NCBI RefSeq assembly: GCF_014636495.1
Contig: NZ_BMEM01000005.1
Span: forward strand, 1 to 64,000
From: Ornithinimicrobium tianjinense
GTDB taxonomy: Bacteria; Actinomycetota; Actinomycetes; Actinomycetales; Dermatophilaceae
Length of the DNA: 64,000 bases
Reading direction: 5' to 3'
In this document: positions 11,707 through 51,837 of the stretch, piece after piece
Position numbering within the stretch: the stretch's first letter is position 1
Layout of the letters: the number at the start of each line of letters is the position of its first letter
Notes under the pieces: generated by a model
Databases searched by the model: none
What the model saw: only the letters and a program-made list of their open reading frames with translations
What the model was told of the DNA's origin: nothing
Made by a program: the position numbers and the translations under genes

Positions 11707-12870
11707 GTGCCCAGTCGTCAGCTCGCCGCCATCGCCCTCGTGCTCGGCGGGGTCGGCATCGGGATCACCGAGTTCGTCACCATGGGCCTGCTGCCCCAGA
11801 TCGCCGAGGGGCTGGGGGTGGACCTGCCGGCCGCGGGGCACGCCATCTCCGCCTACGCCCTCGGTGTCGTCGTCGGCTCTCCCCTCATCGCCCTGGGCGC
11901 CGCCCGTATGCCGATGCGCGCCGTCCTCGTCGCGCTCATGGGGGTCTTCGCGGTGGGGAACGCGCTCGCTGCCGCGGCCCCGACCTACGAGACGCTCGTC
12001 GGGGCCCGCTTCCTCGCGGGGCTGCCGCACGGCGGCTTCTTCGGTCTCGCCTCGCTGGTCGCCGTCGCGATGGCGCCCCGCGGTCAAGGGGGCCGGGCAG
12101 TCGGGACGGTGATGCTCGGCATTCCGATCGCGATGGTCGTCGGGGTGCCGCTCGGGACGTGGGCGGGGCAGGTGCTCGGCTGGCGGGCCGCCTACTGGGC
12201 GGTGGCCGTGATCGGGTTGGTCACAGCCCTGCTGGTGCGGGCGTGGGTGCCCCACTTCCCGGCCGAGAAGGACCGCTCCTTCCGGACCGAGCTCCGCGCA
12301 TTCGGCAACCTGCAGTTCTGGCTGGCGATGCTCGTCGGGGCGGTCGGCTTCGGCGGGATGTTCGCGATGTACTCCTACATCGCGCCCACCATCGAGCAGG
12401 TGACCGGCCTGGACCGCGGGTGGGTGCCGCTCTTCCTGCTGGTGTACGGCGTCTTCTCGCTGATCGGGACCTCGATGGGCGGCCGGCTCGGGGACTGGTC
12501 GGTCCTGCGATCGCTGGCCCTCATGGGGATCGTCTCGGCGGTGTCGCTGCTGGCGTTCTGGCAGACGAGCCGCTGGGCCGTGCCTGCCCTGGTGACCCTC
12601 GCGTTCGTGGCGCTGTCGGGGTCGTCATGGGTGGTCGTGCTCCAGCTGCGGCTGATGCTGGTCGCCGGCGAGGCCAAGACGCTCGGCGCCGCCATGAACC
12701 ACTCCGCCCTCAACGTCGCGAACGCTCTCGGTGCCTGGCTCGGCGGCCTCGTGATCGCCGGCGGCTACGGCCTGCGTGCCCCGTCCCTCGTCGGGGCCGG
12801 CCTGTCCGCGGGCGGGCTGGCGCTGCTCGCGCTCTCCGTCCTGCTGCACCGCCGACCGGACAGGCGTTAG
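11707..12870 (+). CDS. MFS transporter, DHA1/AraJ type
   Basis: A 387-residue, 12-helix major facilitator. The N-terminal GITEFVTMGLLPQIA and the loop RFLAGLPHGGFFG are typical of the AraJ/CmlR-like drug or sugar efflux group, an export function by family. The start is GTG 11707. The last residues DRR and the stop codon lie within the first unit of the 22-bp repeat array, so the gene's 3' end has been shaped by the repeat. Substrate unknown. Confidence 0.88.
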   Translation: MPSRQLAAIALVLGGVGIGITEFVTMGLLPQIAEGLGVDLPAAGHAISAYALGVVVGSPLIALGAARMPMRAVLVALMGVFAVGNALAAAAPTYETLVGARFLAGLPHGGFFGLASLVAVAMAPRGQGGRAVGTVMLGIPIAMVVGVPLGTWAGQVLGWRAAYWAVAVIGLVTALLVRAWVPHFPAEKDRSFRTELRAFGNLQFWLAMLVGAVGFGGMFAMYSYIAPTIEQVTGLDRGWVPLFLLVYGVFSLIGTSMGGRLGDWSVLRSLALMGIVSAVSLLAFWQTSRWAVPALVTLAFVALSGSSWVVVLQLRLMLVAGEAKTLGAAMNHSALNVANALGAWLGGLVIAGGYGLRAPSLVGAGLSAGGLALLALSVLLHRRPDRR

Positions 12871-13029
12871 TGCCCGACCGGACAGGCGTTGCTGCCCGAC
12901 CGGACAGGCGTTCTTGCCGGACCGGACAGTCGTTCCTGCCGGACCGGACAGGCGTTCCTGCCCGACCGGACAGGCGTTAGTGCCGGACCGGACAGGCGTT
13001 AGTGCCGGACCGGACAGGCGTTCCTGCCC
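12854..13029 (+). repeat. 22-bp tandem repeat array, forward arm
   Basis: Eight units start at 12854, 12876, 12898, 12920, 12942, 12964, 12986 and 13008, an exact 22-bp period. The core is GACCGGACAGGCGTT, followed by a more variable five to seven bases ending TGCC. It starts inside the MFS coding sequence and reads away from it. There are no unique spacers, so it is not CRISPR. Confidence 0.93.
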
Positions 13030-13095
13030 GAAGTGACTGGCACTAACGCCTGGCCGGTCGGGTGAGAGCAGATGCCCTGACCGTGGTGGCGCTAG

Positions 13096-13316
13096 CGCCT
13101 GTCCGGACGGGGTGGGGACAGGACAGGCGGAGCGGGTCTGGCGCTAGCGCCTGTCCGGTGTGCAGTAGCGCCTGTCCGGTGTGGCAGGAGCGCCTGTCCG
13201 GTCGTGTGGGGGCAGGACACGCGGGGCGGGGCTGGCACTAACGCCTGTCCGGTGTGCAGTAGCGCCTGTCCGGTGGCAGTAACGCCTGTCCGGTGTGGCA
13301 GTAACGCCTGTCCGGT
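13096..13316 (-). repeat. 22-bp repeat family, inverted arm
   Basis: The same core in reverse orientation (CGCCTGTCCGG) occurs at 13096, 13148, 13169, 13191, 13242, 13263, 13283 and 13305. Spacings are 20-22 bp with two gaps of 51-52 bp; a degenerate copy lies near 13047. It follows the malic enzyme stop and faces the forward arm, so a transcript crossing the junction could fold into one long imperfect hairpin. Confidence 0.88.
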
Positions 13317-13318
13317 GG

Positions 13319-15034
13319 TCAGATGGCTTCGATCTCGGGGTAGCGCGGCTGCCACATGCGCTCGAAGACCTGGCCGACCGGGTCGGTGAGCGGCCGCTGG
13401 GCCACCCCCTCCTCGGTCGCCCGCGTGGCCACGGCGATCGCGACTGTGGCGGAGACCAGGCGCAGGTCGCCCATGCCCGGCAGGAGCGGGGCGCCGGGGC
13501 GCCAGGTGTTGACCATGCCGGCCAGCGCCTGGGCCGCCGCGGCGATCATCCCGTCGGTCACCCGGCTCGCGCGGCACGCGGCCACACCCAGCCCGAGCCC
13601 GGGGAAGATGAGCGCGTTGTTGGACTGGGCGATGACGTGCCGCACCCCGTCGTGGTCGACCGGGTCGAACGGGCTTCCCGTCGCCACCAACGCCTTGCCG
13701 TCGGTCCACTCCAGCAGGTCGGCGGGCGTCGCCTCCGCGCGGCTCGTCGGGTTGGACAGGGGGAAGATGATCGGCCGCGCCGTGTGGCGGGCCATCTCCT
13801 CGACGATCTCCCGGGTGAAGGCGCCGCCCTTGGTCGAGGTGCCGATGAGGATCGTGGGCCGCACGTTGCGGATGACGTCCATCAGTCCGATGTGGTCCGG
13901 CCGCTCGAGCTCCCACCCGGCCACGTCCGTGCGGCTGCGCGCCCACGGCTTCTGGAACTCGTGCAGCCGGTGGTCGTCCTCGAGGTAGAGGCCCTGGATC
14001 CCGATCGGCCAGAACCGTGAGTAGGCCTCCTCCTCGGTCTCCGAGTGCCCGGTCCGCAACATCTGGTCCCGCACCAGGCTGGCGATCCCCATGCCCGCGC
14101 TGCCCGCGCCGAAGACCACGATCCGGTGGTCGTCGAGGTCGACACCGGTCACCTCCACGGCGGCCAGGAGCGCGGCGAGGACCACGGCTGCGGTCCCCTG
14201 GATGTCGTCGTTGAAGGTGCAGACCTCGTCCTTGTAGCGATCCAGGATCCGGTAGGCGTTGGCCGTGCCGACGTCCTCCCAGTGGATCAGGGCCTGGGGG
14301 AACAGCTCGGTCACCGTCGAGACGAACTGGGCGATGAAATCGTCATACCGCTCGCCGCGCACCCGGCTGTGCGGCTCGCCCAGGTAGAGGTCGCTCGAGA
14401 GCAGCCCGAGGTTGTCGGTACCTACGTCCAGCACCACCGGGATGACCCGCCGCGGGTGGATGCCGGCGGCGGCGGTGTAGACCGACAGCTTGCCGATGGC
14501 GATCTGGATCCCGCCGATGCCCTGGTCGCCGATGCCGAGGATGCCCTCCGAGTCGGTCACGCAGATGAGGTCGACGTCGTCGGCGCCCAGGCCGTAGTTG
14601 CGCAGCGACTGCTCCATCTTGTCGGGGCGGTCGATGGACAGGAAGACGCCCCGGGGCCGGTTGTAGGTGCTGCTGAACCGCTCGATCGCCTCACCGATCG
14701 TCGGGGTGTAGATGACCGGGAGCATCTCCTGGAGGTGGTCGGAGAGCAGGCGGTAGAAGAGGACCTCGTTGCGGTCGCGCAGGGCGTTGAGCGTGAGGAA
14801 CTTGCCGAGCATCGACTTGTTGGAGCGGTACTGCTCGTAGACGCGGCGGGTCTGGTTCTCAAGGGTGGTGTAGCCCGTCGGCATGAGGCCGTCGATCTCC
14901 AGCGCCTCGCGCTCCGCCGCGGTGAACGCGGTGCCCCGGTTGGTCATCGGGTTGGACAGCACCGCCCGTCCCCGGGTGCGGATGCGCAGCTTGCCGGCGC
15001 CGATCGTCGTGTCCTGGTCGTACTCGCGGCCCAT
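13319..15034 (-). CDS. NAD-dependent malic enzyme
   Basis: A 571-residue oxidative decarboxylase converting malate to pyruvate and CO2 with NAD(P)+. IYTPTIGEA (about 107-115) contains the catalytic Tyr, the TDSEGILGIGDQG segment follows, FNDDIQGTA (about 254-262) holds metal ligands, and FGAGSAG is the Rossmann glycine loop. The length matches the large (SfcA/MaeA) malic enzymes. ATG 15034 starts the protein. The stop abuts the inverted repeat arm. It stands divergent to the lactonase gene, 32 bp away. Confidence 0.95.
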   Translation of the reverse strand: MGREYDQDTTIGAGKLRIRTRGRAVLSNPMTNRGTAFTAAEREALEIDGLMPTGYTTLENQTRRVYEQYRSNKSMLGKFLTLNALRDRNEVLFYRLLSDHLQEMLPVIYTPTIGEAIERFSSTYNRPRGVFLSIDRPDKMEQSLRNYGLGADDVDLICVTDSEGILGIGDQGIGGIQIAIGKLSVYTAAAGIHPRRVIPVVLDVGTDNLGLLSSDLYLGEPHSRVRGERYDDFIAQFVSTVTELFPQALIHWEDVGTANAYRILDRYKDEVCTFNDDIQGTAAVVLAALLAAVEVTGVDLDDHRIVVFGAGSAGMGIASLVRDQMLRTGHSETEEEAYSRFWPIGIQGLYLEDDHRLHEFQKPWARSRTDVAGWELERPDHIGLMDVIRNVRPTILIGTSTKGGAFTREIVEEMARHTARPIIFPLSNPTSRAEATPADLLEWTDGKALVATGSPFDPVDHDGVRHVIAQSNNALIFPGLGLGVAACRASRVTDGMIAAAAQALAGMVNTWRPGAPLLPGMGDLRLVSATVAIAVATRATEEGVAQRPLTDPVGQVFERMWQPRYPEIEAI

Positions 15035-15075
15035 GAGGCCTCACTCTAGGCCGGGGTGCTGACACGATGGGCAGC

Positions 15076-16086
15076 ATGTCGACGATCTACCTCGGTGGGT
15101 ACACCAGCGGCCAGCCCCCGCACCGGTCCGGTCTCGCGCGGGTGACCTGGACGCCGGACGGCTTCGGTGACGTCGAGCAGGTCGACGGCCCCGCCGACCC
15201 CTCCTGGCTGGTCCGTGCCGGCACGGAGGTGTATGCCGTCTCCGAGGGTCCCGCCCCGAGCGTCGCCCGGGTGCGTCCCGGCTCGGGCGTGGTCGCCGAG
15301 GCGGCCCTCGAGGGCGGGGGCCCGTGCCACCTCGCGCTGTCGCCGGACGGCCGGCGTCTGGTGGCCAGCAGCTACGTCGGGGGCAGCATCACGCTGCTCG
15401 GGATCGACGGCGACGCCGAGGCCCACGACCCCGGTCTGCGGGTGCTCGACCGGCTGGTCTTCGGCGGGTCCGGGCCGCACGAGCGGCAGGACGCCCCGCA
15501 CGCGCACCAGGCCGTGTTCCTGGACGAGGAGCGGCTGCTCGTCTGCGACCTGGGGACCGACCAGGTCCACGAGGTGAGCGTCGGGGAGGGGGCGCTGCGG
15601 CATACCGGGGACATCACCCTGCCCCCGGGCACGGGCCCCCGCCACCTGGCCCTCGCGCCCGGCCGGGAGGACCTCCTGTGGGTCGTCGGCGAGCTCGACC
15701 AGAGCGTCCACACCGTGGTGCGCGAACCTGCGGGATGGGCCGTGCGGCAGACGGTCTCGACCGTCCCCGGCGGACCGGGCCCCGGCGAGACGACCACCGC
15801 GGGGATCGTCGTGTCGCCCGACGGCTCCCACGTCTACGTCAGCACCCGCGGGACGGACACCGTCTCGGCGTTCGCGGCCGGCGACGACGGGCGGCTCACG
15901 CTGCGGCAGCAGGTGGTGACCGGGCACTGGCCACGATTCATCGGCTGGCTGCCCGGTGAGGAGGGCCGCCACCTCGTGGTCGCCGCCGAGCGCGAGGGCT
16001 CCGTCGACGTCTGGTCGGTCGACGAGGGCACCCTCGAGGAGATCGGCCACAGCCTCGCCTGGTCCGCTCCCACCTGGGCCGGGTGA
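15076..16086 (+). CDS. Lactonase family beta-propeller protein
   Basis: A 336-residue seven-bladed beta-propeller of the 6-phosphogluconolactonase/cycloisomerase-2 type. YLGGYTSG at the N-terminus, SPDGRRLVASSY, and GTGPRHLALAP followed later by SPDGSHVYVS are the recurrent blade motifs. ATG 15076 gives MSTIYLGG; ATG 15067 would add three residues. Members hydrolyse 6-phosphogluconolactone or are of unknown activity. A G6PDH-family gene lies 2.2 kb downstream, which fits the pentose phosphate route but is not an operon. Confidence 0.85.
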   Translation: MSTIYLGGYTSGQPPHRSGLARVTWTPDGFGDVEQVDGPADPSWLVRAGTEVYAVSEGPAPSVARVRPGSGVVAEAALEGGGPCHLALSPDGRRLVASSYVGGSITLLGIDGDAEAHDPGLRVLDRLVFGGSGPHERQDAPHAHQAVFLDEERLLVCDLGTDQVHEVSVGEGALRHTGDITLPPGTGPRHLALAPGREDLLWVVGELDQSVHTVVREPAGWAVRQTVSTVPGGPGPGETTTAGIVVSPDGSHVYVSTRGTDTVSAFAAGDDGRLTLRQQVVTGHWPRFIGWLPGEEGRHLVVAAEREGSVDVWSVDEGTLEEIGHSLAWSAPTWAG

Positions 16087-16136
16087 CCACCCCACACCCC
16101 CAGCCACCATTCCCACCGAGCGCGTCAGGTGGTTGC

Positions 16137-16155
16137 TCAGGCAAGCCTTCCCACC
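16137..16155. promoter_or_regulatory. Candidate DtxR/IdeR iron box
   Basis: TCAGGCAAGCCTTCCCACC matches the known actinobacterial iron-box consensus TWAGGTWAGSCTWACCTWA at 14 of 19 positions, including the central AG-S-CT. It lies 38 bp before the start of a VIT1/CCC1-type iron/manganese transporter, the kind of gene that iron regulators control. The mismatches make this a moderate call. Confidence 0.4.
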
Positions 16156-16192
16156 CTGGCGGACGGGCCACCGATCGGCCAGGATGGGCTTC

Positions 16193-16903
16193 ATGAGCCA
16201 GGTAGACGAGACCCACGTCGAGCCCGACACCAGCGCCGCCCGGCTCAACTGGCTGCGCGCCGGTGTCCTCGGGGCCAACGACGGCATCATCTCCACGGCC
16301 GGTGTCGTGATCGGTGTCGTGGCCGCCACCCCTGACCGCACCGCGGTCGCCGTCGCCGGCCTTGCGACGCTGGCAGCGGGCGCGATGTCGATGGCCGTCG
16401 GTGAGTACGTCTCGGTGAGCACCCAGCGGGACAGCGAGATGGCGCTCCTGGAGAAGGAGCGCCGCGAGCTCGCCGAGACGCCCGAGGAGGAGCTCGAGGA
16501 GCTCGCCGGCATCTACCGCGACAAGGGGATCAGCGACGACCTCGCCCACGAGGTGGCGCGGCAGCTCACCGAGCACGACGCCCTCGCCGCGCACGCGGAG
16601 GCCGAGCTCGGGATCAACCCCGACGAGCTCACCAACCCCTGGCACGCGGCCTGGGCGTCGATGGTCGCCTTCACCCTGGGTGCGCTGCTCCCGCTCGCCG
16701 CGATCCTGCTCGCCCCCACCGGCTGGGAGGTCGTCGTCACGGTCGGGGCCGTGCTCGTCGCCCTGTTCACGACCGGCGCCGTGAGCGCGACCCTGGGCGC
16801 CAGCGCGCGCACCCCGGCCGTGCTGCGCAACGTGCTGGGTGGCCTGCTGGCGATGGGCCTGACCTACGCGATCGGCTCGCTCCTCGGGGTCACCGTCGTC
16901 TGA
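16193..16903 (+). CDS. VIT1/CCC1 family iron/manganese transporter
   Basis: A 236-residue membrane transporter that moves Fe2+ or Mn2+ out of the cytosol. The first helix GANDGIISTAGVVIGV is the family signature, followed by a helix with GAMSMAVGEYVSVSTQRDSE. An acidic cytoplasmic domain (about 75-140, rich in Glu) is the metal-binding part, and three C-terminal helices follow. ATG 16193 (MSQVDET) is preferred; ATG 16184 is possible. The gene ends 9 bp from a convergent gene. A candidate iron box lies upstream. Confidence 0.9.
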   Translation: MSQVDETHVEPDTSAARLNWLRAGVLGANDGIISTAGVVIGVVAATPDRTAVAVAGLATLAAGAMSMAVGEYVSVSTQRDSEMALLEKERRELAETPEEELEELAGIYRDKGISDDLAHEVARQLTEHDALAAHAEAELGINPDELTNPWHAAWASMVAFTLGALLPLAAILLAPTGWEVVVTVGAVLVALFTTGAVSATLGASARTPAVLRNVLGGLLAMGLTYAIGSLLGVTVV

Positions 16904-16912
16904 CGGGGACGG

Positions 16913-18151
16913 TCACGGCATACCGGGCAGGAGGCGGTGATCCACCGCCAGCGGCTCGGCCAGGTCGATCGTGAGGAACTCGTTGACGTCCTGGACGCCC
17001 GGCCCCCGGCCACCGGCGGCCGGGTAGTTGTTGTCGTTGAGCACCGCGATCGTGTCGGCGTCGAGGATCTCCACGTCCTCGATCGTGAAGTAGGGGAAGG
17101 TGAACGGGTCGGTGCCGGTGCCCAGGAGCTCGGGGTTCGGCACGTCCATCAGGTCCACGAGCAGCTGCTTGTCGACATAGCCGTCGCGGTCGCGGTCGCG
17201 CAGGTCCACGAGGTAGACCCGCTTGAAGGACGCCTCCGCGCCCTGCTTGCTGTCGCGCTCGATGATGAGCAACTGGTGCGCGTTGATCGCGATGGCGTCG
17301 CCCAGCGCGTGCGCCGCCGACTCCATGCGGTAGCGGACGAACTCACCGGTGAACGCGGCGCCCGTGGCCGGGTGCAGCCGGACGTCGTAGATGCGCAGGT
17401 CCGCGGCGAGCCCGGCAGCCTTGTCCTCCGCCGTCGCGCCCTCCAGCATCGGGTAGAGGTGCTGACCGTTCGGGGCGATGGCCATCCCCTCGAAACCCTT
17501 GGAGCCCAGCAGGTTCGGCTCGCCGACGAGCTGGGCGTTCTGCGGTGCCTGCACGCCGGGGGTCGGGATCGGCGCCTCCAGCAGCCGGCCCTGCGCGTCG
17601 GTGTGCAGCAGGTAGGGGCCGAACTCGTCGCCGAACCAGAACGTGCCGTCCGTGGCGATCTGCATCGACTCGATGTCGAAGTCCCAGCCGGTGAGCACCC
17701 GGTCCGCGCGCCACAGGCTCCAGCCGACGTGCGCGTCAGGGTCGCTGAGCACGAAGCCGCCGTCGAGGAGCTCGACCTCGCCGCTGACCAGGTCCGGACG
17801 GATGTGGTGGACGCGCAGCTGGAAGTCCTGGGAGTTGGTCCTGGCGCCGAAGCCGTTGTCGCTCATCACCAGGTAGCTGCCGTCCCCGACGGCGTGCACG
17901 GCCGAGAAGCCCTGGACGGGCTGCCCCGGGAAGGGCGCCGCGGGGTTGCCGGTGAACGCTCCGGACTCCTCCGAGCCCGGCACGAAGGTCTCCGCCGGCA
18001 GCACCGCCCACCCGGAGAGGTGGTATGCCGAGCGCGTGCTGTCCGCGTCCGCGCCGGTCGGCGTGGGGCGGGCGGCGAAGGCAGGGGACGTCGCGAGGGC
18101 GAGGACGCAGGCGGCGGAGGTGACGGTCAGGGAGCGGCGGGCGATCTGCAT
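16913..18151 (-). CDS. Secreted esterase-like phytase family protein
   Basis: A 412-residue exported protein of the 'esterase-like activity of phytase' family. A signal peptide (MQIARRSLTV start, cleavage after AFA near residue 26) precedes a beta-propeller-like body with SDNGFGA, FWFGDEFGPYLL and GFEGMAIAPNG, typical motifs of the family. A Ca-loop-like DRDRDGYVDK is near residue 335. ATG 18151 lies next to a recurrent CATACC motif. The true substrate of such proteins is usually unknown. Confidence 0.85.
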   Translation of the reverse strand: MQIARRSLTVTSAACVLALATSPAFAARPTPTGADADSTRSAYHLSGWAVLPAETFVPGSEESGAFTGNPAAPFPGQPVQGFSAVHAVGDGSYLVMSDNGFGARTNSQDFQLRVHHIRPDLVSGEVELLDGGFVLSDPDAHVGWSLWRADRVLTGWDFDIESMQIATDGTFWFGDEFGPYLLHTDAQGRLLEAPIPTPGVQAPQNAQLVGEPNLLGSKGFEGMAIAPNGQHLYPMLEGATAEDKAAGLAADLRIYDVRLHPATGAAFTGEFVRYRMESAAHALGDAIAINAHQLLIIERDSKQGAEASFKRVYLVDLRDRDRDGYVDKQLLVDLMDVPNPELLGTGTDPFTFPYFTIEDVEILDADTIAVLNDNNYPAAGGRGPGVQDVNEFLTIDLAEPLAVDHRLLPGMP

Positions 18152-29693: not shown

Positions 29694-31199
29694 ATGACGG
29701 ACACCGACGTGACGAAGCCCGGCACCACCGTGGCCACCCCGGACCGGCCCGAGCCCCAGGACGTCCTGGTCGAGACCTCGCACACCGTGCGCACCGACGA
29801 CGGCGAGCTGGCCTACACGGTGCGCACCGGCCGCGTCGTGCTCCGTGAGGAGGAGTACAAGGACGACGTCTTCCAGGGCTGGAGGCCGCGCGCCGAGCTG
29901 GCGGTCACGGCCTACACGCTGGACGTGGAGGGTCCCGACGGGCGCACCGGCGCCGACCCGACTCGGCCGATCACCTTCGTCTTCAACGGCGGCCCGGGCT
30001 CCAGCTCGCTGTGGCTGCACCTGGGCGTGCTCGGCCCGCGTGTCGTCGACGCGGGGGAGCCCGGGGCGCCGACGCCCCCGCCCTACGCCCTTGAGGACAA
30101 CCCGCAGACGGTGCTGCGCGCGACCGACCTCGTCTTCGTCGACCCGATGTCGACCGGGCTCTCGCGGGCGGTCGAGGGCGGCAAGGCCAAGGACTACCAC
30201 GGCTGGAAGAAGGACGTGGAGCAGGTCAGCGAGCTGATCCGCCTCTGGTGCACCCGCGAGGACCGGTGGATGAGCCCGAAGTTCCTCTGCGGCGAGTCCT
30301 ACGGGACGACGCGGGCCGTGTCGGTCGCCGAGCACCTCTTCGAGCGCTTCGGCATGCAGCTCAACGGCCTGGTCCTCATCTCGAGCGTGCTGGACTTCGG
30401 CACCCAGGACTTCCGCTTCCTGCGCCACGACGAGGCCTGCCAGTCCTACCTGCCGACCTACGCCGCGATCGCGCACTACCACGGCAAGCACGAGGGTCGG
30501 ACGCTGCAGGAGGTGCTGACCGAGGCCGAGGAGTTCGCCGCCGGCACCTACCGGTGGGCGCTCGGGCGCGGGCACCGGCTCACCGACGAGGAGCGGTATG
30601 ACGTGCGCGCCCGCCTGGCCTCGCTCACGGGCCTGTCCGAGGACTACCTCGAGCGCTGCGACCTGCGGCCCGAGCACTGGCGCTTCTGCACCGAGCTGCT
30701 GCGCGACCGGGGGCTGACCGTCGGGCGCATCGACGGCCGGATCACCGGGGTGCTGCACTCGGGCATCGCCGAGGGGATGGACGCCGACCCCTCGATCGAC
30801 ATGATCATGGGCCCCTACTCCGCCGCGATCCACCACTACCTGCGCGGCGAGCTGCGCTCCGAGCTCGACCTGCCCTACGCGGTCTTCTCGGACGCCATCG
30901 AGCACTGGTCCTACAAGGAGTTCGAGGGCCGGCCGGTCAACGTGACCGACAAGCTGGAGCGGGTCATGCGCGCCAACCCGCACCTGCGGGTGCGGATCGA
31001 GTACGGCTACTACGACCTCGCCACGCCGTACGGCGCCGCCGAGGACATGGTGGCCCACCTGAAGCTGCCGGAGCAGGCGCTCGACCGGATCGAGCACGCG
31101 TGGTTCGAGACCGGTCACATGCCGTATGTCGGTGCCGCGACCCGCGCCGAGGAGGCCGAGGGCATCACCGACTTCGTGCGGCGCGCCAGCGCGCTCTGA
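29694..31199 (+). CDS. S10 family serine carboxypeptidase-like protein
   Basis: A 501-residue alpha/beta-hydrolase of peptidase family S10. FNGGPGSSS supplies the oxyanion hole, Ser202 in GESYGTTR is the nucleophile, Asp in GYYDLATP and His in TGHMPY complete the triad. No signal peptide is present, so it is probably cytoplasmic, unlike eukaryotic S10 enzymes. ATG 29694. The gene is followed by the 52-bp repeat array. Confidence 0.9.
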   Translation: MTDTDVTKPGTTVATPDRPEPQDVLVETSHTVRTDDGELAYTVRTGRVVLREEEYKDDVFQGWRPRAELAVTAYTLDVEGPDGRTGADPTRPITFVFNGGPGSSSLWLHLGVLGPRVVDAGEPGAPTPPPYALEDNPQTVLRATDLVFVDPMSTGLSRAVEGGKAKDYHGWKKDVEQVSELIRLWCTREDRWMSPKFLCGESYGTTRAVSVAEHLFERFGMQLNGLVLISSVLDFGTQDFRFLRHDEACQSYLPTYAAIAHYHGKHEGRTLQEVLTEAEEFAAGTYRWALGRGHRLTDEERYDVRARLASLTGLSEDYLERCDLRPEHWRFCTELLRDRGLTVGRIDGRITGVLHSGIAEGMDADPSIDMIMGPYSAAIHHYLRGELRSELDLPYAVFSDAIEHWSYKEFEGRPVNVTDKLERVMRANPHLRVRIEYGYYDLATPYGAAEDMVAHLKLPEQALDRIEHAWFETGHMPYVGAATRAEEAEGITDFVRRASAL

Positions 31200-31221: not shown

Positions 31222-31443
31222 CACTCACGTGAGTGGGTGGGGCACGGCATACCCGGCAAGCGCGTGCGCAACTCACTCACGTGAGTGGGTTGGGCACGGC
31301 ATACCCGGCAAGCGCGTGCGTAACTCACTCACGTGAGCGGGTTCTGCACGGCATACCCGGCAGACGCGTGCGCAACTCACTCACGTGAGTGGGTTAGGCA
31401 CGGCATACCCGGCAAGCGCGTGCGTAACTCACTCACGTGAGTG
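31222..31443. repeat. 52-bp tandem repeat array with 14-bp palindrome
   Basis: The palindrome CACTCACGTGAGTG (one copy ends GAGCG) starts at 31222, 31274, 31326, 31378 and 31430, an exact 52-bp period. Between copies lie a GGCACGGCATACCCGG element and GCGTGCG. It fills the convergent gap between the carboxypeptidase and the oxidoreductase, each unit able to form a short hairpin. Confidence 0.93.
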
Positions 31444-31482
31444 GCCCGTGCTCGGGGAGCCGCGGTGCGGCGGAGGAGAAGC

Positions 31483-32058
31483 TCAGGCGACGACGCCGAA
31501 GCCGCCGGTCCAGGAGATCTTCTCGGAGGCCGCGAGGGTCAGCTGCAGGAAGCCCAGGGCCTCCATCTCGCGGGCGCGCTTGAGGGCACCGGCGTCGACG
31601 GCGTTGAGGCCACCGGCGCGGACGATGCCGGCCAGCTGCTCCTTGGCGGCGGTGTCGTCACCGGCGATGAGCACGGTCGTGGTCAGCGGGCCGACGGTGC
31701 CGGCCGCGAGGGTGCCCGCGAAGGTGGTGTTGAAGGCCTTGAGCACGCGGGCGGTCGGCAGCTGGGCGGCGATCTCCTGCGCGGCGGAGGAGTCGGCGGG
31801 CACGACGAGCGAGTCGAAGGTCTCGAAGTTCAGCGGGTTGGTGATGTCCACCACGATCTTGCCGTCGAGCTGGCCCGGGCGCTGCGCGATGACCTCGTCG
31901 ACCGCGGGGAAGGGGACGGCCAGGACGACGATCTCGCCCGCGACCGGGGTGGCGAAGTCCTCGGTGCCGAGGAGCTGGGCGGTGCCGCCGGCCTTGCTGA
32001 CGATGCCGGAGATCGCCTGGGCCATGTTGCCGGTGCCGATGATCGTGACGGTGCTCAT
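31483..32058 (-). CDS. NADPH-dependent F420 reductase-like oxidoreductase
   Basis: A 191-residue single-domain protein with a Rossmann fold: IIGTGNMAQAI (6-16) binds NADP, followed by VVLAVPFPAV and VDITNPLNF, the pattern of F420H2:NADP+ oxidoreductase relatives. AFNTTFA near residue 128 matches the F420-binding region of the family. Whether F420 is used here is inferred. ATG 32058 has AAGGAC upstream. It is divergent from a MarR regulator with an operator-like dyad between them. Confidence 0.82.
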   Translation of the reverse strand: MSTVTIIGTGNMAQAISGIVSKAGGTAQLLGTEDFATPVAGEIVVLAVPFPAVDEVIAQRPGQLDGKIVVDITNPLNFETFDSLVVPADSSAAQEIAAQLPTARVLKAFNTTFAGTLAAGTVGPLTTTVLIAGDDTAAKEQLAGIVRAGGLNAVDAGALKRAREMEALGFLQLTLAASEKISWTGGFGVVA

Positions 32059-44898: not shown

Positions 44899-45575
44899 GC
44901 CCGGGCGCCTCGCCGGGCGCTGACGTGTGGGACACGCTCCTGGCGGCCGGCTCGGCCACCACGACCTTCCTGGACCGGCGCACCTGGGACCGGCGCTCGA
45001 CGGAGGAACCGGGGTCGCTGCCCCGGGGCTCGTACGACCTCGCCCAGGGACGCCTGGAGCTCGCGTGGGCCACCGGCCGCCAGCTCGTCGCGACCTGGCG
45101 CGGCGCGCCGGTCGCGAGCGGGCAGGCGCAGTTCCACGAGGCGCTGCCCTGGCCCTGGACCACGATGCCGCTGACGCTGGGCGGCGTGGAGGTCACCTGC
45201 GGGCGGGTGGCCGTCGAACCTACGCCGCGCAGCCCGCTGGTGGCGCACACCCAGCTCGTGGCGGCTCGTGAGGACGGCGGTGGCTCGTGGGTCTACCGGG
45301 TGGTGGGTCCGACGGTCCCCCGGCCGGTCAAGGAGCGCTCGGTCGGCACGCACCGCGCGCTCCTGGAGCGCGCCGACGGCACCGTCGTGGTCACGCACGA
45401 CCTGCCGCCCCTGCTCGAGCAGGTGATGGCGGAGGGGTCGCGGACCACCGGCGTGAGCTGGGTGGAGGGCACTCGCCTGGCCGAGCTCGTGCTGGCGCTC
45501 ATGTGGACGGCCGACGAGCTCTTCCGTGGGGTGGCGCCCCCGGCCTACCGGACGGCTAATCTCGACTTCTGGTGA
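44895..45575 (+). CDS. Hypothetical protein of the WXG-like operon
   Basis: A 226-residue soluble protein with no family that I recognise. It is strand-rich in the middle (GRLELAWATGRQLVATW, VEVTCGRVAVEP) and helical near the end (LAELVLALMWTADELFRG), ending YRTANLDFW. GTG 44895 overlaps the previous stop (GTGA). It ends 20 bp inside the convergent gene. Conserved position in the operon suggests a partner or immunity role for the 474-residue protein. Confidence 0.5.
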   Translation: MSPGASPGADVWDTLLAAGSATTTFLDRRTWDRRSTEEPGSLPRGSYDLAQGRLELAWATGRQLVATWRGAPVASGQAQFHEALPWPWTTMPLTLGGVEVTCGRVAVEPTPRSPLVAHTQLVAAREDGGGSWVYRVVGPTVPRPVKERSVGTHRALLERADGTVVVTHDLPPLLEQVMAEGSRTTGVSWVEGTRLAELVLALMWTADELFRGVAPPAYRTANLDFW

Positions 45576-46005
45576 GCGCGGCGCGCAGGGCCTCGGCCAG
45601 CTCCTCCGGCCGGTGGGTCGGGAAGCGGACCTGACCCCGGCCGTGCACGAAGGCGGCGACCGCCTTCATGCCCAGCGGCACGGCATACCCTCCGCCAGCC
45701 AGGTTGCCCCGCGGGGCGGGGTCCGGCTCGCCGGGGGCCCGGACGCTCGCCGGGTCGATCGAGGAGAGCGGGATCCTGTCGCGGCCGACGACCAGGTGGG
45801 TGTCGGTGATCCGCAGACCGGAGTAGTGGTTGGTCGACCACATCGCGATGGCGGCCGGGACGGCGACCACCCCGACGATCGCCAGCGCCAGGCCGTCGAG
45901 GGTGCCCAGGCGCAGCCGGACGAGGTAGAGACCGAGCAGGATCAGGGCGGCGAGGACGAGCCAGGCGACGGGACCGACGGGCTTCTCTCGATACGTAGGC
46001 GACAC
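45556..46005 (-). CDS. Two-helix membrane protein, DUF3093/PH-like
   Basis: A 149-residue protein with two adjacent hydrophobic helices (about 12-30 and 35-52), then a soluble domain GLRITDTHLVVGRDRIPLSSI and RPEELAEALRAAL at the end. The domain resembles bacterial PH-like or DUF3093 proteins. GTG 46005. Its stop overlaps the convergent operon by 20 bp. Function unknown. Confidence 0.65.
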   Translation of the reverse strand: MSPTYREKPVGPVAWLVLAALILLGLYLVRLRLGTLDGLALAIVGVVAVPAAIAMWSTNHYSGLRITDTHLVVGRDRIPLSSIDPASVRAPGEPDPAPRGNLAGGGYAVPLGMKAVAAFVHGRGQVRFPTHRPEELAEALRAALTRSRD

Positions 46006-46067
46006 GGTGCCTCATCGTGCCATGCGGTGGCCGGGCCGGTGCCAGGTCGATGTGGTTGGGTGGACGG

Positions 46068-46583
46068 ATGGACACGGGCACGCTGCGCCGCAAGCTGGGG
46101 ACGGCTGCGCTGCTGGCCTTCCGGGGGATCCCGACGCCGCTGAAGCGCCACGTGGTGCGGCTGGCCTCGCCCAGCTACACCGCCGGCGCCGTGTGCGTCC
46201 TGGAGCATGCCGGCGAGATCCTCGTGCTGTGGCAGCCGCACCGGGCGGGCTGGAGCCTGCCCGGCGGGTTCATGGGCAAGGGCGAGACGCCCGAGGACGC
46301 CGTGCGCAGGGAGGTGGCCGAGGAGATCGGGATCGAGGTCGACCCCGGCGACGTCGTGGCCGTGCAGGTCGACGTGGAGCGGCAGGGCATCGACGTGATC
46401 TTCCGGGTGCCGCTCGAGGCCAGGCCCGTGCTGGGGCTCGCGACCGAGGCCAGGAAAGCGATGTGGGTGGCGCCTGCCGAGCTCGATGAGGCCGACCGCA
46501 GCACCGTCGGCATCCTCGCGGCGATCCAGGCCGCGGACCAGCCGCGCCGACCGGGGCGGCTGCTGCGGGACGCCGGCCGGTAG
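46068..46583 (+). CDS. Nudix hydrolase
   Basis: A 171-residue Nudix protein. The box GX5EX7REUXEEXGU occupies residues 67-89 (GFMGKGE to EEIGI), so a diphosphate-linked nucleoside is hydrolysed in the cytosol. ATG 46068 (MDTGTLRR) is preferred over upstream starts that overlap the divergent gene. The C-terminus and stop (TAG) lie at the first partial unit of the 22-bp repeat array. Confidence 0.88.
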   Translation: MDTGTLRRKLGTAALLAFRGIPTPLKRHVVRLASPSYTAGAVCVLEHAGEILVLWQPHRAGWSLPGGFMGKGETPEDAVRREVAEEIGIEVDPGDVVAVQVDVERQGIDVIFRVPLEARPVLGLATEARKAMWVAPAELDEADRSTVGILAAIQAADQPRRPGRLLRDAGR

Positions 46584-46745
46584 GCGCAACGGCCGGACCG
46601 GACAGGCGCAACGGCCGCACCGGACAGGCGCAACGGCCGGACCGGACAGGCGCAACGGCCGGACCGGACAGGCGCAACGGCCGCACCGGACAGGCGCAAC
46701 GGCCGCACCGGACAGGCGCAACGGCCGGACCGGACAGGCGCAACG
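46583..46745 (+). repeat. 22-bp tandem repeat array after the Nudix gene
   Basis: The core ACCGGACAGGCG starts at 46597, 46619, 46641, 46663, 46685, 46707 and 46729, an exact 22-bp period, with CAACGGCC[G] in between; a partial unit precedes at 46583. Orientation is sense to the Nudix gene. It fills the convergent gap to the quinone oxidoreductase stop. Confidence 0.95.
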
Positions 46746-46752
46746 GCCACGG

Positions 46753-47739
46753 TCAGGCGGGGCCCACGTCGAGGAGGATCTTGCCGACGTGTCCGGAGGC
46801 CTCCATCTCCCGATGGGCGTCGGCGGCCCGGTCGAGCGGGTAGCGGGACTGGATGACGGTGCGCACCCGTCCGTCCTCGAGCCACGGCCACACCCGCTCG
46901 CGGACCTCGGCCACGATCCCGGCCTTGCCGTCCGCCGGTCGGGAGCGCAGCGACGTGGCGATGACCCGCGCGCGTTTGCTCAGCAGCGTCCCGAGGTCCA
47001 GCTCGGCCCGCCGTCCGCCGAGGAGCCCGATGACGACGAGCCGGCCGTCCGGGGCCAGCGCGTCGACGTTGCGGGTTAGGTACTTCGCACCGACCACGTC
47101 GAGGATCACGTCGGCTCCCCGGCCATCGGTCGCCGCCCGCACCTCCTCGACGAAGTCCTGCTCGCGGTAGTTCACGAGCACGTCCGCGCCGAGCTCACGG
47201 CACGCGTCGAGCTTGTCCTCGCTGCCCGCGGTCACGACGACCCGCGCCCCCAGCGCCGAGGCGACCTGGATCGCCATGGTGCCGATGCCGCTCGAACCGC
47301 CGTGCAGCAGCACGGTCTCGCCGTCGCGCAGGCCGGCCTCGCTCACCAGGTTGCTCCAGACCGTGCACGCCACCTCCGGCAGTGCCGCGGCATCGGCCAG
47401 GGGTATGCCGTGCGGCACCGGCAGGAGCTGCCCCGCGGGGACGGCGACGTGCTCGGCATACCCGCCGCCGGTGAGGAGCGCGCAGACCTCGTCGCCGACG
47501 GACCAGCCGTTCACCCCGGGGCCGAGCGCGGCCACCCGGCCGCTCACCTCGAGCCCCGGCAGCGGGCTGGCGCCGGGCGGCGGCGGGTAGAAGCCTTTCC
47601 GCTGCTGCACGTCGGCGCGGTTGACGCCGGCCGCGACGACGTCGACGATGACCTCACCCTCGCCGGGGGTGGGGGCGGGGACGTCCACGGGCACGAGGAC
47701 CTCGGCCTCGCCCGGCTCTCGGATCTCGATGGCGCGCAT
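46753..47739 (-). CDS. NAD(P)H-dependent quinone oxidoreductase (PIG3-like)
   Basis: A 328-residue MDR-superfamily oxidoreductase without zinc ligands. [22 protein letters not shown] (38-57, in part) is the family start and [15 protein letters not shown] binds [30 protein letters not shown] is the typical ending of the PIG3/crotonyl-reductase group. ATG 47739 (MRAIEIREP) is chosen over GTG 47745. It lies 10 bp from the TauE gene on the same strand, so it may join that operon. Confidence 0.87.
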
Positions 47740-47749
47740 GAGCACAACG

Positions 47750-48499
47750 CTAGGCGAGGCTCAGCAGCCCGCGCACCAGGGCGGCGCAGGCGCCGGCGGT
47801 GGCCAGCACCAGCGCCGTGCGTGCCGCGGCGCGGGCCGAGAGTCGCCTCGCCACCGGCCTGCCCAGGAGGACGCCGAGCACCGCGGCTGCCGCCAGGGCT
47901 GGCCAGATCACCACAGGCAGCACCCCCGGCGCGGGTGCGGCGCCGAGCAGTCCCTTGGTGAGCAGCGAGGTCAGGTTGGCGGTGAGGAAGACCGGTTGCA
48001 GGGTGGCGCGGAAGGCGCGGTGCTCCCACCGGGTGGCCAGCGAGTAGGCCGTCATCGCCGGTGCGGCGACGCCTGAGGTGGTGTTCATGAAGCCGGCGGC
48101 CAGGCCGGCGACCACGGAGGTGCCGGGCAGCGTGATCTCGGTGCGCCTGGCCAGCACGCCGCCGGCGACGAGGGCGAGGAGCACCGAACCTCCCACCAGC
48201 ACGTCGAGCCAGGCGGCCGGCGTCGAGCGGACGGCGAGGGCGCCCAGCACCGAGCCCACGACGATGAGCGGCGCGAGCGCGGCATACCGGCGCCAGTCGA
48301 CGTGGTGCCGCAGGTCGCGGAGCACGAGCAGGGCGACGGCCACGGCAGCCATGTTGCTGGTCGTCACCCCGGCGACCGGGCCCAGCAGCAGGGTCAGCAG
48401 CGGGGCCGCGACCATGCCGAGCCCCATCCCCGCCGTCCTCTGCAGGAGCGCGCCCAGGCACACGGTGCCGCACATCAGGAGCAGCACCTCGAGCGGCAC
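47750..48499 (-). CDS. TauE/SafE family membrane protein
   Basis: A 249-residue transporter of the sulfite/organic anion exporter family, with about eight helices. The start MPLEVLLLMCGTVCLGALLQ and the repeat-motif AGFMNTTSGVAAPA (family AGxxxxxxGxxGG-like) are visible. GTG 48499 follows the tctA stop codon with no gap, so translation is coupled. Being last in the tct operon, it may move a related carboxylate or sulfonate. Confidence 0.85.
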   Translation of the reverse strand: MPLEVLLLMCGTVCLGALLQRTAGMGLGMVAAPLLTLLLGPVAGVTTSNMAAVAVALLVLRDLRHHVDWRRYAALAPLIVVGSVLGALAVRSTPAAWLDVLVGGSVLLALVAGGVLARRTEITLPGTSVVAGLAAGFMNTTSGVAAPAMTAYSLATRWEHRAFRATLQPVFLTANLTSLLTKGLLGAAPAPGVLPVVIWPALAAAAVLGVLLGRPVARRLSARAAARTALVLATAGACAALVRGLLSLA

Positions 48500-50008
48500 C
48501 TACTCCTCCTCGGCGAAGACCACCTCGCGCTTGCGGCGGATCGTCGGCAGGACCGCGATCACCAGGGCCACGAGGGCCAGCCCCAGGAGCGTCGCGGAGA
48601 TCGGGCGGGTGAGGAAGGTCATCGGGTCGCCACGGCTGATGATCAGCGCGCGACGGAGGTACTCCTCCAGGAACGGGCCGAGGACGAAGCCGAGCAGCAG
48701 CGGGACCGGCTCGCAGCCAGCGCGGATGAGCAGGTAGCCGATGAGGCCGAAGACCACGATCCCCAGGACCTCGTAGATGTTGCCGCGGATCGAGTAGCAG
48801 CCGATGCAGGCGAAGACGACGATGGCCGGGAAGAGCACCCAGTAGGGCACCTGCAGCATCTTGACCCACATCCCGATCAGGGGGAGGTTGAGCAGCACCA
48901 GCAGGAAGTTGCCGATCCACATCGAGGCGATGAGCCCCCAGACCAGCTCCGGCTCGTCCTGGATGACCGAAGGACCGAGGGCGATGCCCTGCAGGATGAG
49001 GGCGCCCGCGATCATGGCCATGACGCCGTTCGCCGGCAGGCCCAGGGTCAGGAGGGGTATGAAGCTCGTCTGCGCCGCGGCGTTGTTGGCGGCCTCGGGT
49101 CCGGCGACGCCGGCGATCGCACCGTGGCCGAACTCCTTGGGGTTCCTGGAGACCTTCTTCTCCAGGGCGTAGGAGCCGAACGACGCGAGCACGTGACCGC
49201 CGCCGGGCAGCACGCCGAGGATCGATCCCAGCACGGTGCCGCGGGTGGCGGGCGCCACGGACCGGCGCAGGTCCTCGCGCCCCGGCCACAGGCCCTTGAT
49301 GGCGCCGACGATCCGGCCGCTGTGCTGGGGGTCGTGCAGGTTGCGCAGGATCTCGGCGACGCCGAACAGGCCGACGGCCACCGAGACGAAGTTGAACCCG
49401 GCGTCAAGGTCGGGGATGCCGAAGGTGAAGCGAGCCGTGTTGGTGAAGCCGTCGCGGCCGACGGTGCTGAGCAGGATGCCCAGGACGATCATCGCCAGCG
49501 CCTTGAGCGGTGAGCCGCTGGCCAGGGCGATCGAGACGATGAGGCCGAGCACCACGACGGAGAACAGCTCGGCCTGCCCGAACTTCAGCGCCACCGCCGT
49601 GAGCGGCGGGGCGGCGACGGCGATCGCCACCGTGGCCACGGTGCCGGCGGCGAAGGAGGAGAGGGCGGCGATGGCCAGGGCGGTCCCGGCCTTGCCCTGG
49701 CGAGCAAGCTGGTGTCCGTCCAGGGCGGTGACCGCCGAGGACGACTCTCCCGGAAGGTTGATCAGGATCGCGGTGGTGGAACCGCCATACTGCGCGCCGT
49801 AGTAGATGCCGGCGAGCATGATGATGGCGGTGACCGGCTCGTCGAAGCCGAAGGTGATCGGCAGCAGCATCGCCACCGTGGCCGTCGGGCCGATGCCCGG
49901 GAGCACGCCGACCGCTGTGCCCAGCGCGACGCCGAGCAGGCAGAAGAGGAGGTTCTTGAGCTGGAACGCGGTCGTCAGGCCCAGGATGAGGTTGTCGAAG
50001 AGGTCCAC
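48500..50008 (-). CDS. tctA: Tripartite tricarboxylate transporter, TctA subunit
   Basis: A 502-residue, 11- to 12-helix permease. The N-terminal GVLPGIGPTATVAMLLP is the TctA signature and a second copy-like GVLPGGGHVLASFGSYALEKKVS follows at about 265. ATG 50008 starts one base after the tctB stop. With TctB and the binding protein it imports a carboxylate, typically citrate-like, driven by an ion gradient. The actual substrate is not readable. Confidence 0.94.
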   Translation of the reverse strand: MDLFDNLILGLTTAFQLKNLLFCLLGVALGTAVGVLPGIGPTATVAMLLPITFGFDEPVTAIIMLAGIYYGAQYGGSTTAILINLPGESSSAVTALDGHQLARQGKAGTALAIAALSSFAAGTVATVAIAVAAPPLTAVALKFGQAELFSVVVLGLIVSIALASGSPLKALAMIVLGILLSTVGRDGFTNTARFTFGIPDLDAGFNFVSVAVGLFGVAEILRNLHDPQHSGRIVGAIKGLWPGREDLRRSVAPATRGTVLGSILGVLPGGGHVLASFGSYALEKKVSRNPKEFGHGAIAGVAGPEAANNAAAQTSFIPLLTLGLPANGVMAMIAGALILQGIALGPSVIQDEPELVWGLIASMWIGNFLLVLLNLPLIGMWVKMLQVPYWVLFPAIVVFACIGCYSIRGNIYEVLGIVVFGLIGYLLIRAGCEPVPLLLGFVLGPFLEEYLRRALIISRGDPMTFLTRPISATLLGLALVALVIAVLPTIRRKREVVFAEEE

Positions 50009-50009
50009 G

Positions 50010-50591
50010 TCAGCCCCCCAACCACTCGCCCAGCAACGGCAGTCGTTGCTGGAGTCCCAGGACGAAGATCAACCACGATGCGACGGTCAGCCCGGCGGCC
50101 GGCGCGAGAGCCTGCACCGCCGTCGTCCCGGGGCGGGCGTAGGAGGCGAGCAGAGAGGTGCCGAAGACGGAGAGGAACAGCCCGAGGCCCTCGAAGGTCA
50201 GCGCGAAGAAGAGCACCGCGGCCAGCACGAGGACCGTAGGCCGCCACTGCAGCCGCCCGAACTCACGGGGTGCGCCCTGCGGGTCGCTGACGCCGGCGAG
50301 ATCCGCCGTGCGGTCGGGACCGACGAACGCCTTGACGATCACGCCGACGCCGAGGGCGCACAGCACGAGCCCGACGCTCAGCGGGACGTAGCCCGGGCCC
50401 ATCTTCAGCAGGGTGCCCATCTCGTACTGCAGCGAGCCGAGGGCGAAGGCGAGCCCGAGGAGCACGAAGATGATGCCCGCGGCGAGGTCCGCGGAGGACC
50501 AGGTGCGCTGCCGTGCCCCCTCCGACGGGTCGACGTTCGTCGGCCCGTCGGAGGAGGACGCGGCGGGGGTGCCGGCGCTGATGTCAGCCAC
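50010..50591 (-). CDS. tctB: Tripartite tricarboxylate transporter, TctB subunit
   Basis: A 193-residue small subunit with four helices (about 38-55, 68-85, 115-135 and 145-180). GPGYVPLSVGLVLCALGV in the second quarter is the TctB motif. The N-terminal 35 residues are polar. The start overlaps the end of the tctC gene by 8 bp. It partners TctA. Confidence 0.87.
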   Translation of the reverse strand: MADISAGTPAASSSDGPTNVDPSEGARQRTWSSADLAAGIIFVLLGLAFALGSLQYEMGTLLKMGPGYVPLSVGLVLCALGVGVIVKAFVGPDRTADLAGVSDPQGAPREFGRLQWRPTVLVLAAVLFFALTFEGLGLFLSVFGTSLLASYARPGTTAVQALAPAAGLTVASWLIFVLGLQQRLPLLGEWLGG

Positions 50592-51588
50592 CGGCCGGCA
50601 GGATCCCCGCCCAGAGCTCGGTCTGCTCCTTGAGCTTGGCCGAGTGCGCCTCCGGGGTGGCCTGGTCCTCGGCCACCGGTGCGGTGCCGAGCTTGGCCAT
50701 CTCGTCGATGACCGTCTGGTCCTTGAGCGCGGCCTGGAGCGCCTCGGTCAGCTTCGCGACGACGTCGTCAGGAGTCTCCGCCGGCACGTAGAGGCCGTGC
50801 CACACGCTGACCTCCAGGTCCAGTCCCGACTCCTGCGCCGTCGGGAGGTCCGAGAGCGACTCGACACGCTCTGGCGTGGTCACCGCGTAGGCCTTGACGC
50901 TGCCGTCCTTGATCTGGCTGGAGGTGTTGGTCGTCTGGTCGCACATGAGGTCGACCTGTCCGCCCACCAGCTCGGTCATGGCCGGGCCTGTCCCGTCGTA
51001 GGGCACCTCGTTGAACGTCACGCCCAGCGCGTCCTGCAGCAGCAGGCCGCAGAGGTTGGAGGCCGAGCCGACACCGGCGTGGGCGAGGTTGACCGAGTCG
51101 GCATTCTCCTTGAGATAGGTGATGAGGTCCTTGGCGTCGGTCGCCTCGAAGTCCTTGCGGGCGATGATCGTCATCGGCACCTCGGTCACCAGCCCGACGG
51201 TCTTGAAGTCGGTCTGCGGGTCGTAGGCGAGGTCCTCGTAGAGCGTCGGCGCGGTGGACATGCCGATGTGGTGCATGAGGACGGTGTAGCCGTCGGGGTC
51301 GGCCTGAGCGGCCTCGGCGCCACCGACGGTGCCGCCGGCGCCCTCGACGTTCTCGACGAGGACCTGCACCTCCAGCGCCTCGCCCATAGGCTCGGCGATG
51401 AGGCGGGTCACGGTGTCCGTGGGGCCGCCGGCGGAGAAGGGCACGATCATCGAGATGTCGTCCTCGGGGAAGGAAGCGGCGTCGCCGCCCTCGCCCCCGC
51501 CGTCGCCGCAGGCGGTGAGGGTCAGGAGCGCGGCTGCCGCGACAGCCCCGGCTCGAAGCGTGCGGGTGGGCCAGCTGCGAGGTGACAT
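50584..51588 (-). CDS. tctC: Tripartite tricarboxylate transporter binding protein (TctC/Bug)
   Basis: A 334-residue lipoprotein. Its signal peptide ends in a lipobox LTAC with Cys27 as the lipid site, then a Gly/Asp linker. FSAGGPTDTVTRLIAEPM and ENVEGAGGTVGGAEAAQADPDGYT are Bug-family motifs that contact the carboxylate. ATG 51588 starts the operon tctC-tctB-tctA-tauE. An IclR gene lies 250 bp upstream. Confidence 0.93.
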   Translation of the reverse strand: MSPRSWPTRTLRAGAVAAAALLTLTACGDGGGEGGDAASFPEDDISMIVPFSAGGPTDTVTRLIAEPMGEALEVQVLVENVEGAGGTVGGAEAAQADPDGYTVLMHHIGMSTAPTLYEDLAYDPQTDFKTVGLVTEVPMTIIARKDFEATDAKDLITYLKENADSVNLAHAGVGSASNLCGLLLQDALGVTFNEVPYDGTGPAMTELVGGQVDLMCDQTTNTSSQIKDGSVKAYAVTTPERVESLSDLPTAQESGLDLEVSVWHGLYVPAETPDDVVAKLTEALQAALKDQTVIDEMAKLGTAPVAEDQATPEAHSAKLKEQTELWAGILPAGG

Positions 51589-51737
51589 AAGGAGGCTCCG
51601 ATCGTCGTCGACCTGGGGGAGCGAGGGTCGGCTCCCGTGGGAAGAAAGTACCCCCGTGCGGGCCGGTGCGCCAGAGATCGTCGCCGGTGGCGCGTGGATC
51701 GGTGCTGGTCAGCGACTCGGGGCCGGTCCGGCAGGAG

Positions 51738-51837
51738 CGCCTGTCCGGTGGGGCAGGAACGCCTGTCCGGTGGGGCAGGAACGCCTGTCCGGTGGGGCAG
51801 GAACGCCTGTCCGGTCTGGCAGGAACGCCTGTCCGGT
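51738..51837 (-). repeat. 22-bp tandem repeat array after the IclR gene
   Basis: The core CGCCTGTCCGGT starts at 51738, 51760, 51782, 51804 and 51826, an exact 22-bp period, with GGGGCAGGAA or TGGCAGGAA between. It begins just after the IclR stop and reads sense to IclR. The rest of 51589-51737 shows no gene. Confidence 0.95.

Follow-up and report, generated by a model that had tools for sequence, protein, structure and literature searches.

Tandem arrays of a short repeat lie behind genes in the window

We examined a 64,000-bp stretch of DNA from Ornithinimicrobium tianjinense (C5:1-64000, hereafter the window; the genome comprises 3.31 Mb in 12 contigs) in order to understand short tandem arrays that lie at the 3' ends of its genes. 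Each unit of these arrays consists of ACCGGACAGGCG, four variable bases and then usually TGCC. By eye, units start with ACCG, usually after CCCG, CG or TG. A first-pass annotation had listed three such arrays with an exact 22-bp period, and Tandem Repeats Finder, together with a scan for the core, recovers all three, at 12852-13031, 46582-46748 and 51723-51844. The observation is larger than first noted: at up to one mismatch, the window holds 32 core matches where 8.7 are expected, and 0 of 100 shuffles gave as many. Searched against Rfam 15, the window gives no match above gathering score.

The first array is a head-to-tail run of eight units with a period of 22 bp (12854..13031, + strand), with cores at 12856 + 22n and one unit reading CCGGACAGTCG. 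It is carried by the 3' end of an MFS transporter gene (11707..12870, + strand) and runs in the sense of that gene. Its first unit lies inside the open reading frame, and the TTAG of this unit provides the stop codon TAG. A malic enzyme gene (13319..15034, - strand) converges on the transporter gene, and two facing arms fill most of the 448-bp gap between them. The inverted arm (13047..13315, - strand, sense to malic enzyme) begins 2 nt past the malic enzyme stop and comprises eight exact cores at 13096-13315, spaced by 20-22 bp with jumps of 51-52 bp, as well as a degenerate copy at 13047. These eight cores had been overlooked as the partner of the first array. The variable half of the unit had been described as differing between loci. 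The first locus is not uniform in itself: TTAG, TTGC, TTCT and TTCC all occur before TGCC, and TTNCTGCC is not the sole form.

The other two arrays have no inverted arm. Seven exact units with a period of 22 bp and the variable part CAACGGCC (46582..46748, + strand, exact cores at 46598-46740) run in the sense of a NUDIX hydrolase gene (46068..46583, + strand), which faces a convergent gene that Pfam assigns to zinc-binding dehydrogenases (46753..47745, - strand). The first exact unit lies 13 nt past the NUDIX stop and, by eye, a degenerate unit overlaps the stop. Five exact units of the same period (51723..51844, - strand, exact cores at 51738-51836) are located 3 nt past the stop of an IclR-type regulator gene (51841..52617, - strand), again in sense. 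The gene names given in the first pass agree with the Pfam families MFS_1, Malic_M, NUDIX and IclR_C.

Arms face inward from stop codons across the genome

To judge from sequence, the motif is dispersed over the whole genome and lies close to stop codons. The whole-genome scan that the first-pass annotation had proposed returned 243 exact copies of the core CCGGACAGGCG, compared with 9 of the reversed control, and 82 exact core pairs spaced 22 bp apart, compared with none. Position was tabulated in 39 fetched stretches which, with the window, amount to 534 kb. Because the stretches were picked for holding cores and lean towards array loci, the fractions below contrast types of gap and are not genome averages. 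The core listing is complete up to part of contig C1, with the other contigs sampled at loci with 22-bp pairs, and genes were called with a home-made codon-usage caller whose calls for six window genes agree with Pfam.

The tabulation covers 278 cores (up to one mismatch), with 246 in gaps, 19 inside genes and 13 at stretch edges. Among 482 called gaps, cores are present in 17/77 convergent, 19/326 same-direction and 5/79 divergent gaps, so that convergent gaps are favored over all others (17/77 versus 24/405; p 4e-5). Of the 41 arms directed into the gap from a stop codon, 36 begin no more than 30 bp away from it (median for the 41, 4 bp), and nine stop-adjacent arms use the A of a TGA stop as the first base of their unit. 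By comparison, the 15 arms directed into the gap from a start codon have a median distance of 67 bp (p 1.4e-5). The link to gene 3' ends proposed in the first pass therefore largely holds for arms that point away from a stop codon. Its second half, that the core runs in the sense of the gene, is not universal, because 39 cores in same-direction gaps are antisense (52 are in sense); nine of these gaps are sense-only, four antisense-only and six mixed. A fuller rule, as far as these tables go, is that the repeats are inward-facing in the gap. Fifteen gaps of this genome contain both orientations, and 14 of them begin with a forward (>) and end with a reverse (<) arm. Eleven of the 14 are clean > > < < arrangements and three have inner reversals (L037, one gap of L042 and the window); L033 is the sole outward gap. 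Taken together with a second motif family described below, 20 of the 21 independent gaps with mixed arms run from > to <, and both orientations occur in 21/49 independent gaps with a 3' end, compared with 0/8 divergent gaps (p 0.021).

We also considered what else might mark these positions. tRNA genes were rejected as an anchor, since the 39 fetched stretches hold three tRNAs, none of them at an array. A mobile element between the arms was rejected, as the intervening genes are ordinary by eye (deoC, thymidine phosphorylase, cytidine deaminase and fumarase). Among the 25 Pfam families displayed of 137 found in 79 array-neighbor proteins, no family has more than four members and no transposase appears. 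At two loci, L044 (C3:56173-56652) and L045 (C3:203105-203748), a similar extra piece with CCGCTGACGTTGACGTCAA lies between the facing arms, by eye.

Facing arms are predicted to form a long hairpin

Folded as RNA, the region 12850-13320 forms one long hairpin (-364 kcal/mol, z -18.7). The single-arm NUDIX and IclR arrays fold little better than their shuffles (z -2.0 and -1.5). Of 18 single units that were folded, most are not hairpins. The sense strand reaches z -2.4 for the TTCC and -1.9 for the TTGC variant of this genome, -1.6 and -4.0 for two units of the sister genome G007, -2.7 for G021 and -3.2 for one further unit of G002. The other 12 lie between -1.0 and +2.0 (four variants of this genome, two units of G002, those of G026 and G018, and all four of the second family), and a hairpin unit was thus rejected as a general rule.

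The first pass had offered a terminator as one possible role, and the arrays could in principle be ordinary intrinsic or bidirectional terminators that have been multiplied; they start right after stop codons, and facing arms form stems. Yet a GC-rich hairpin followed by a run of T is absent from 12600-13500, the region scanned, single arms lack strong stems, and upstream and divergent positions occur. At an sdhB-like gene (L056, named by eye), the stop codon is followed by the array and then by a distinct GC-rich inverted repeat whose short tail is rich in T. By eye, this second repeat looks terminator-like, and because of it the array need not be the terminator of that gene. We consider the terminator explanation highly improbable.

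Motif families turn over between sister species

We scanned 96 relatives, including 30 in the genus, which together with the present genome give a genus set of 31. The exact 22-bp core pair is found in none of the 96, and the 12-mer ACCGGACAGGCG, with 234 copies in this genome, has 0-7 in each of the 30 sisters. The gap between malic enzyme and MFS transporter is repeat-free in G005, G014, G027 and G001, and the NUDIX and IclR 3' ends are repeat-free in G014, G027 and G001. At the malic enzyme locus G018, G003 and G015 have other neighbors and are not comparable; the flank in G018 carries a few copies of ACCGGACACACC. A scan of GTDB yielded two isolated core pairs only, in Streptomyces sp. S465 and a deltaproteobacterial metagenome-assembled genome. 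A phage or plasmid origin was rejected, as a typed two-unit sequence has no match in phage or plasmid records. Separately, a spaced core pair was seen in four IMG/VR contigs.

A shorter box is shared more widely. Pairs of ACCGGACA number 14 in G002 (twelve exactly 22 bp apart), 15 in G007, 5 in G021 and 3 in G026, with different right halves; the remaining sisters have 0-4 pairs, and controls reach up to 4 (G023). Counts of CGACCGGACA are 37, 58, 36 and 35 in G002, G007, G021 and G026, against 8, 1, 2 and 3 for controls, and 135 against 3 in the present genome. At one gap common to this genome (L062) and G007 (L174), where the flanking gene products are 70% and 46% identical, both species carry repeats of the ACCGGACA type that differ in their right halves. 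The fumarase 3' gap of G002 (L196) holds a further G002 repeat, CGACCGGGCGCACGGTTCTCCCGG, where this genome and others carry different motifs.

Ten of the 30 sisters carry arrays of other motifs, so that at least one array family is present in 11 of the 31 genus genomes: the present one, G002 and nine with ACCGRGCGNCGCNNNTGGTTG. An assembly artifact, for which the first pass would have taken a lack of arrays in every sister as the sign, does not fit these genomes, which lack the motif of O. tianjinense yet bear arrays of their own. ACCGRGCGNCGCNNNTGGTTG has no copy in the control; it occurs 17 times in G012, 97 in G028, 8 in G007, 138 in G026, 64 in G021, 91 in G011, 82 in G017, 91 in G030 and 62 in G029. 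Of its 77 spacings, 65 measure 32 bp and 8 measure 33 bp. Neighboring 11-bp linkers of an arm share 9.4/11 positions on average (45 pairs), compared with 4.9/11 between arms, and whole linkers are usually absent outside the arm, with L220 and one arm of L235 as exceptions.

Facing arms of the second family are inward in 11/11 mixed rows. Five of these rows represent the fumarase gap, and L221 and L223 represent a single gap seen in two species, which leaves 6/6 independent gaps; duplicate loci were dropped from this table, and the blocks of G017, G028, G029 and G030 were left out. At the fumarase gap the arms read >< in G030, ><< in G029, ><<<< in G028, ><<< in G017 and >><<< in G011, and the gap has no arms in G012, G021 and G007. 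In a tree of fumarase DNA, G017, G012, G028, G029 and G030 form one fully supported group. The orthologous convergent gap shared by L221 (G028) and L223 (G026) has facing second-family arms that differ in linkers and variable triplets. Judged by these comparisons, the families appear to be replaced quickly between species.

Arrays grow locally with a preferred period

The exact 22-bp period holds at the three window arrays, whereas genome-wide it is only the commonest. Over 52 arrays, the modal period is 22 bp in 33, 32-34 bp in 8, 40-42 bp in 5, 37 bp in 2, and 21, 26, 27 and 29 bp in one each. Runs of N in the assembly of this genome lie within or next to the arrays at L048, L056, L063 and L069, and array lengths there are therefore uncertain.

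The long linkers of this genome can partly be rebuilt from bases just outside the array, with a match of 0.75 compared with 0.57 when pairings are shuffled (16 arrays; 0/200 shuffles). In the second family, the linkers can be accounted for in part when they are divided between the upstream and the downstream flank (6.8/11 versus 5.7 shuffled; 28 arms; 0/200 shuffles); the 28 arms represent 15 different gaps, and seven of the arm rows come from the fumarase gap of several species. Since linkers are closer to the flanks of their own array than expected from shuffled pairings, the sequences show that the arrays grew through tandem duplication, at each locus, of the motif with some flank, which bears out the earlier proposal that a common seed expanded locally. 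It is odd that a near-exact 32-bp period goes with unrelated linkers, because simple slippage would not be expected to pick the same length at 15 different gaps.

Periods of 22, 32 and 42 bp make a phased-protein model attractive: each unit would bind a protein on the same helical face, and the array would influence supercoiling or folding in the space between genes, much as gyrase sites in bacterial interspersed mosaic elements (BIMEs) or iterons do. The modal periods of 21-22 bp (34/52), 32-34 bp and 40-42 bp, the regular spacing of the second family despite unrelated linkers, the linear units with a variable middle and the preference for convergent gaps are all consistent with it. On the other hand, arrays with periods of 26, 27/17, 29 and 37 bp exist, no binding protein is known, and among the 18 non-22-bp arrays alone a 10.5-bp rhythm has p about 0.15. 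Helical phasing is thus suggestive and, outside the 22-bp arrays, not significant; the protein-binding array of two helical turns suggested in the first pass stays hypothetical, and we find a protein-site array rather improbable.

Could the repeats lack any function? Neutral or selfish sequences that spread and slip would end up behind stop codons through purifying selection against damage to coding regions and promoters. The species-specific motif, its absence from the orthologous gaps examined, the varying copy number at the fumarase gap, the expansion by local duplication, the weak structure of single arms and the absence of a common family among the displayed array neighbors all agree with this explanation. 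What it leaves unexplained is the > to < order seen in 20 of the 21 independent gaps with mixed arms across two families and the nine arms that share the A of TGA. We regard it as possible rather than probable.

The repeats resemble REPs without being REPs

Intergenic repeats behind genes are known from enterobacteria as BIMEs, for which 3' mRNA protection and gyrase binding have been proposed, and mycobacteria have intergenic tandem repeats of changing copy number (variable-number tandem repeats and mycobacterial interspersed repetitive units). The present repeats resemble BIMEs in lying behind genes; BIME units alternate in orientation, whereas here all units of an arm run head-to-tail and it is the arms that oppose each other. 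They resemble the mycobacterial repeats as intergenic tandem repeats of changing copy number and differ from them in that a single short motif is found at dozens of loci, where its linkers are specific to the locus and its orientation follows a rule. The second family recalls clustered regularly interspaced short palindromic repeats (CRISPR) in its constant motif, linkers of constant length and whole linkers that are usually not found outside the array. In contrast to unique CRISPR spacers, linkers here are repeated within an array and resemble local flanks, and the arrays are many, small and dispersed; this comparison draws on the repeats alone, as cas genes were not searched for.

The closest likeness is to repetitive extragenic palindromic (REP) sequences and REP doublets forming hairpins (REPINs). 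In the two species plotted in PMC3733652, most REPs of convergent gaps are found no farther than 20 bp from 3' ends, and those in same-direction gaps sit close behind the upstream gene; in PMC3116915, REPIN tandem clusters incorporate flanking DNA, as the arrays here do. The likeness extends to tens to hundreds of extragenic copies near 3' ends, to units that in some cases supply stop codons, to head-to-head pairs and to species-specific families (PMC3733652, PMC3116915). The repeats of O. tianjinense are high-copy, extragenic and close to 3' ends. With regard to a head-to-head doublet as the replicative unit, mixed gaps are mostly inward, but single arms and singletons are common. A REP unit is an imperfect palindrome that forms a stem-loop, which some variants do here and the group of 18 folded units does not, and its tag is GTAG or CGTC, while units here begin with ACCG by eye. 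GTAG REPs are moved by a Y1 transposase (REP-associated tyrosine transposase, RAYT; PF01797), which is absent from all 31 genus genomes in a search whose control was positive in 5/14 known genomes, so that RAYT-driven REPs were rejected; the CGTC REPs described in PMC3733652 also have no dedicated transposase. Because the group fails the tests of palindrome, tag and RAYT, the best reading of these sequence features is that the repeats are REP-like rather than REPs, a separate sort with a REP/REPIN-like life style. Among the literature matches listed, no title or abstract opening reports such arrays, and a search by motif letters likewise gave none on such repeats among its listed matches.

A more far-reaching proposal is a new dispersal-and-amplification system independent of Y1 transposases, in which some factor would recognize the ACCG-headed motif, place it at stop codons facing the gap and duplicate it with its flank by a fixed 22/32-bp ruler, the motif being exchanged repeatedly within the genus. 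We hold this to be doubtful.

Other repeated sequences in the window and genus

A different tandem repeat of 52 bp in 4.3 copies (31222-31444, unit including CACGGCATACCCGG) occupies most of the gap between convergent genes at 29694-31199 (+) and 31483-32058 (-) of the window. Moreover, ACGGCATACC and overlapping words are enriched in intergenic DNA of this genome, G018, G027, G014, G002 and G007. ACGGCATAC occurs in 38 of 337 intergenic pieces of this genome (0.2 expected). Among 45 intergenic copies of the ACGGCATACC-type word in this genome, 34 are directed at a start codon, many of these from 3-40 bp away, and 116 more lie inside genes; the word is possibly a promoter element.

Dispersed repeats as possible 3'-end hairpins

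We favor, at a probability of about 0.55, the reading that these are dispersed REP/REPIN-like extragenic repeats whose facing arms can form long hairpins at gene 3' ends. The short motif would have been spread over the chromosome by some enzyme. It is found mainly directly behind stop codons, where it is least harmful, and the sequences show that duplication in tandem at these places, taking in a few flanking bases, gave rise to arrays, mostly with periods of 22, 32-34 or 40-42 bp. Where arms face each other, the transcript is predicted to fold into a very long stem. REP hairpins elsewhere are held to hinder read-through and 3' exonucleases, and by analogy such a stem may limit read-through and decay between convergent or successive genes. 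Single-arm arrays would represent expansion without hairpin function.

Several observations weigh against this reading. Numerous arrays run in a single orientation, among them the NUDIX and IclR arrays, two of the window's three, and these two barely exceed their shuffles in folding. Antisense arms exist in same-direction gaps, the array at the sdhB-like gene precedes a terminator-like repeat of its own, and in this genome alone mixed arms are present in 15/36 gaps with a 3' end compared with 0/5 divergent gaps (p 0.14). The data do not separate selection for 3' hairpins from mere tolerance of insertion, and neither the search for PF01797 in the 31 genomes nor the displayed families of the 79 neighbors identified a transposase as the mover. 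A role as terminator or as protein array stays hypothetical, as do function and mover of the repeats in general; the 3'-end rule itself exists and is better put as inward-facing.

Two families in one genus follow similar rules: their units have a 12-bp head starting with ACCG and three to four variable bases, their arrays prefer a certain period, and their arms are oriented inward and lie close behind stop codons. A cross-species comparison of their drivers is therefore possible. It could address the driver of extragenic repeats in genomes that lack a Y1 transposase, as well as the question of whether very long hairpins protect gene ends.

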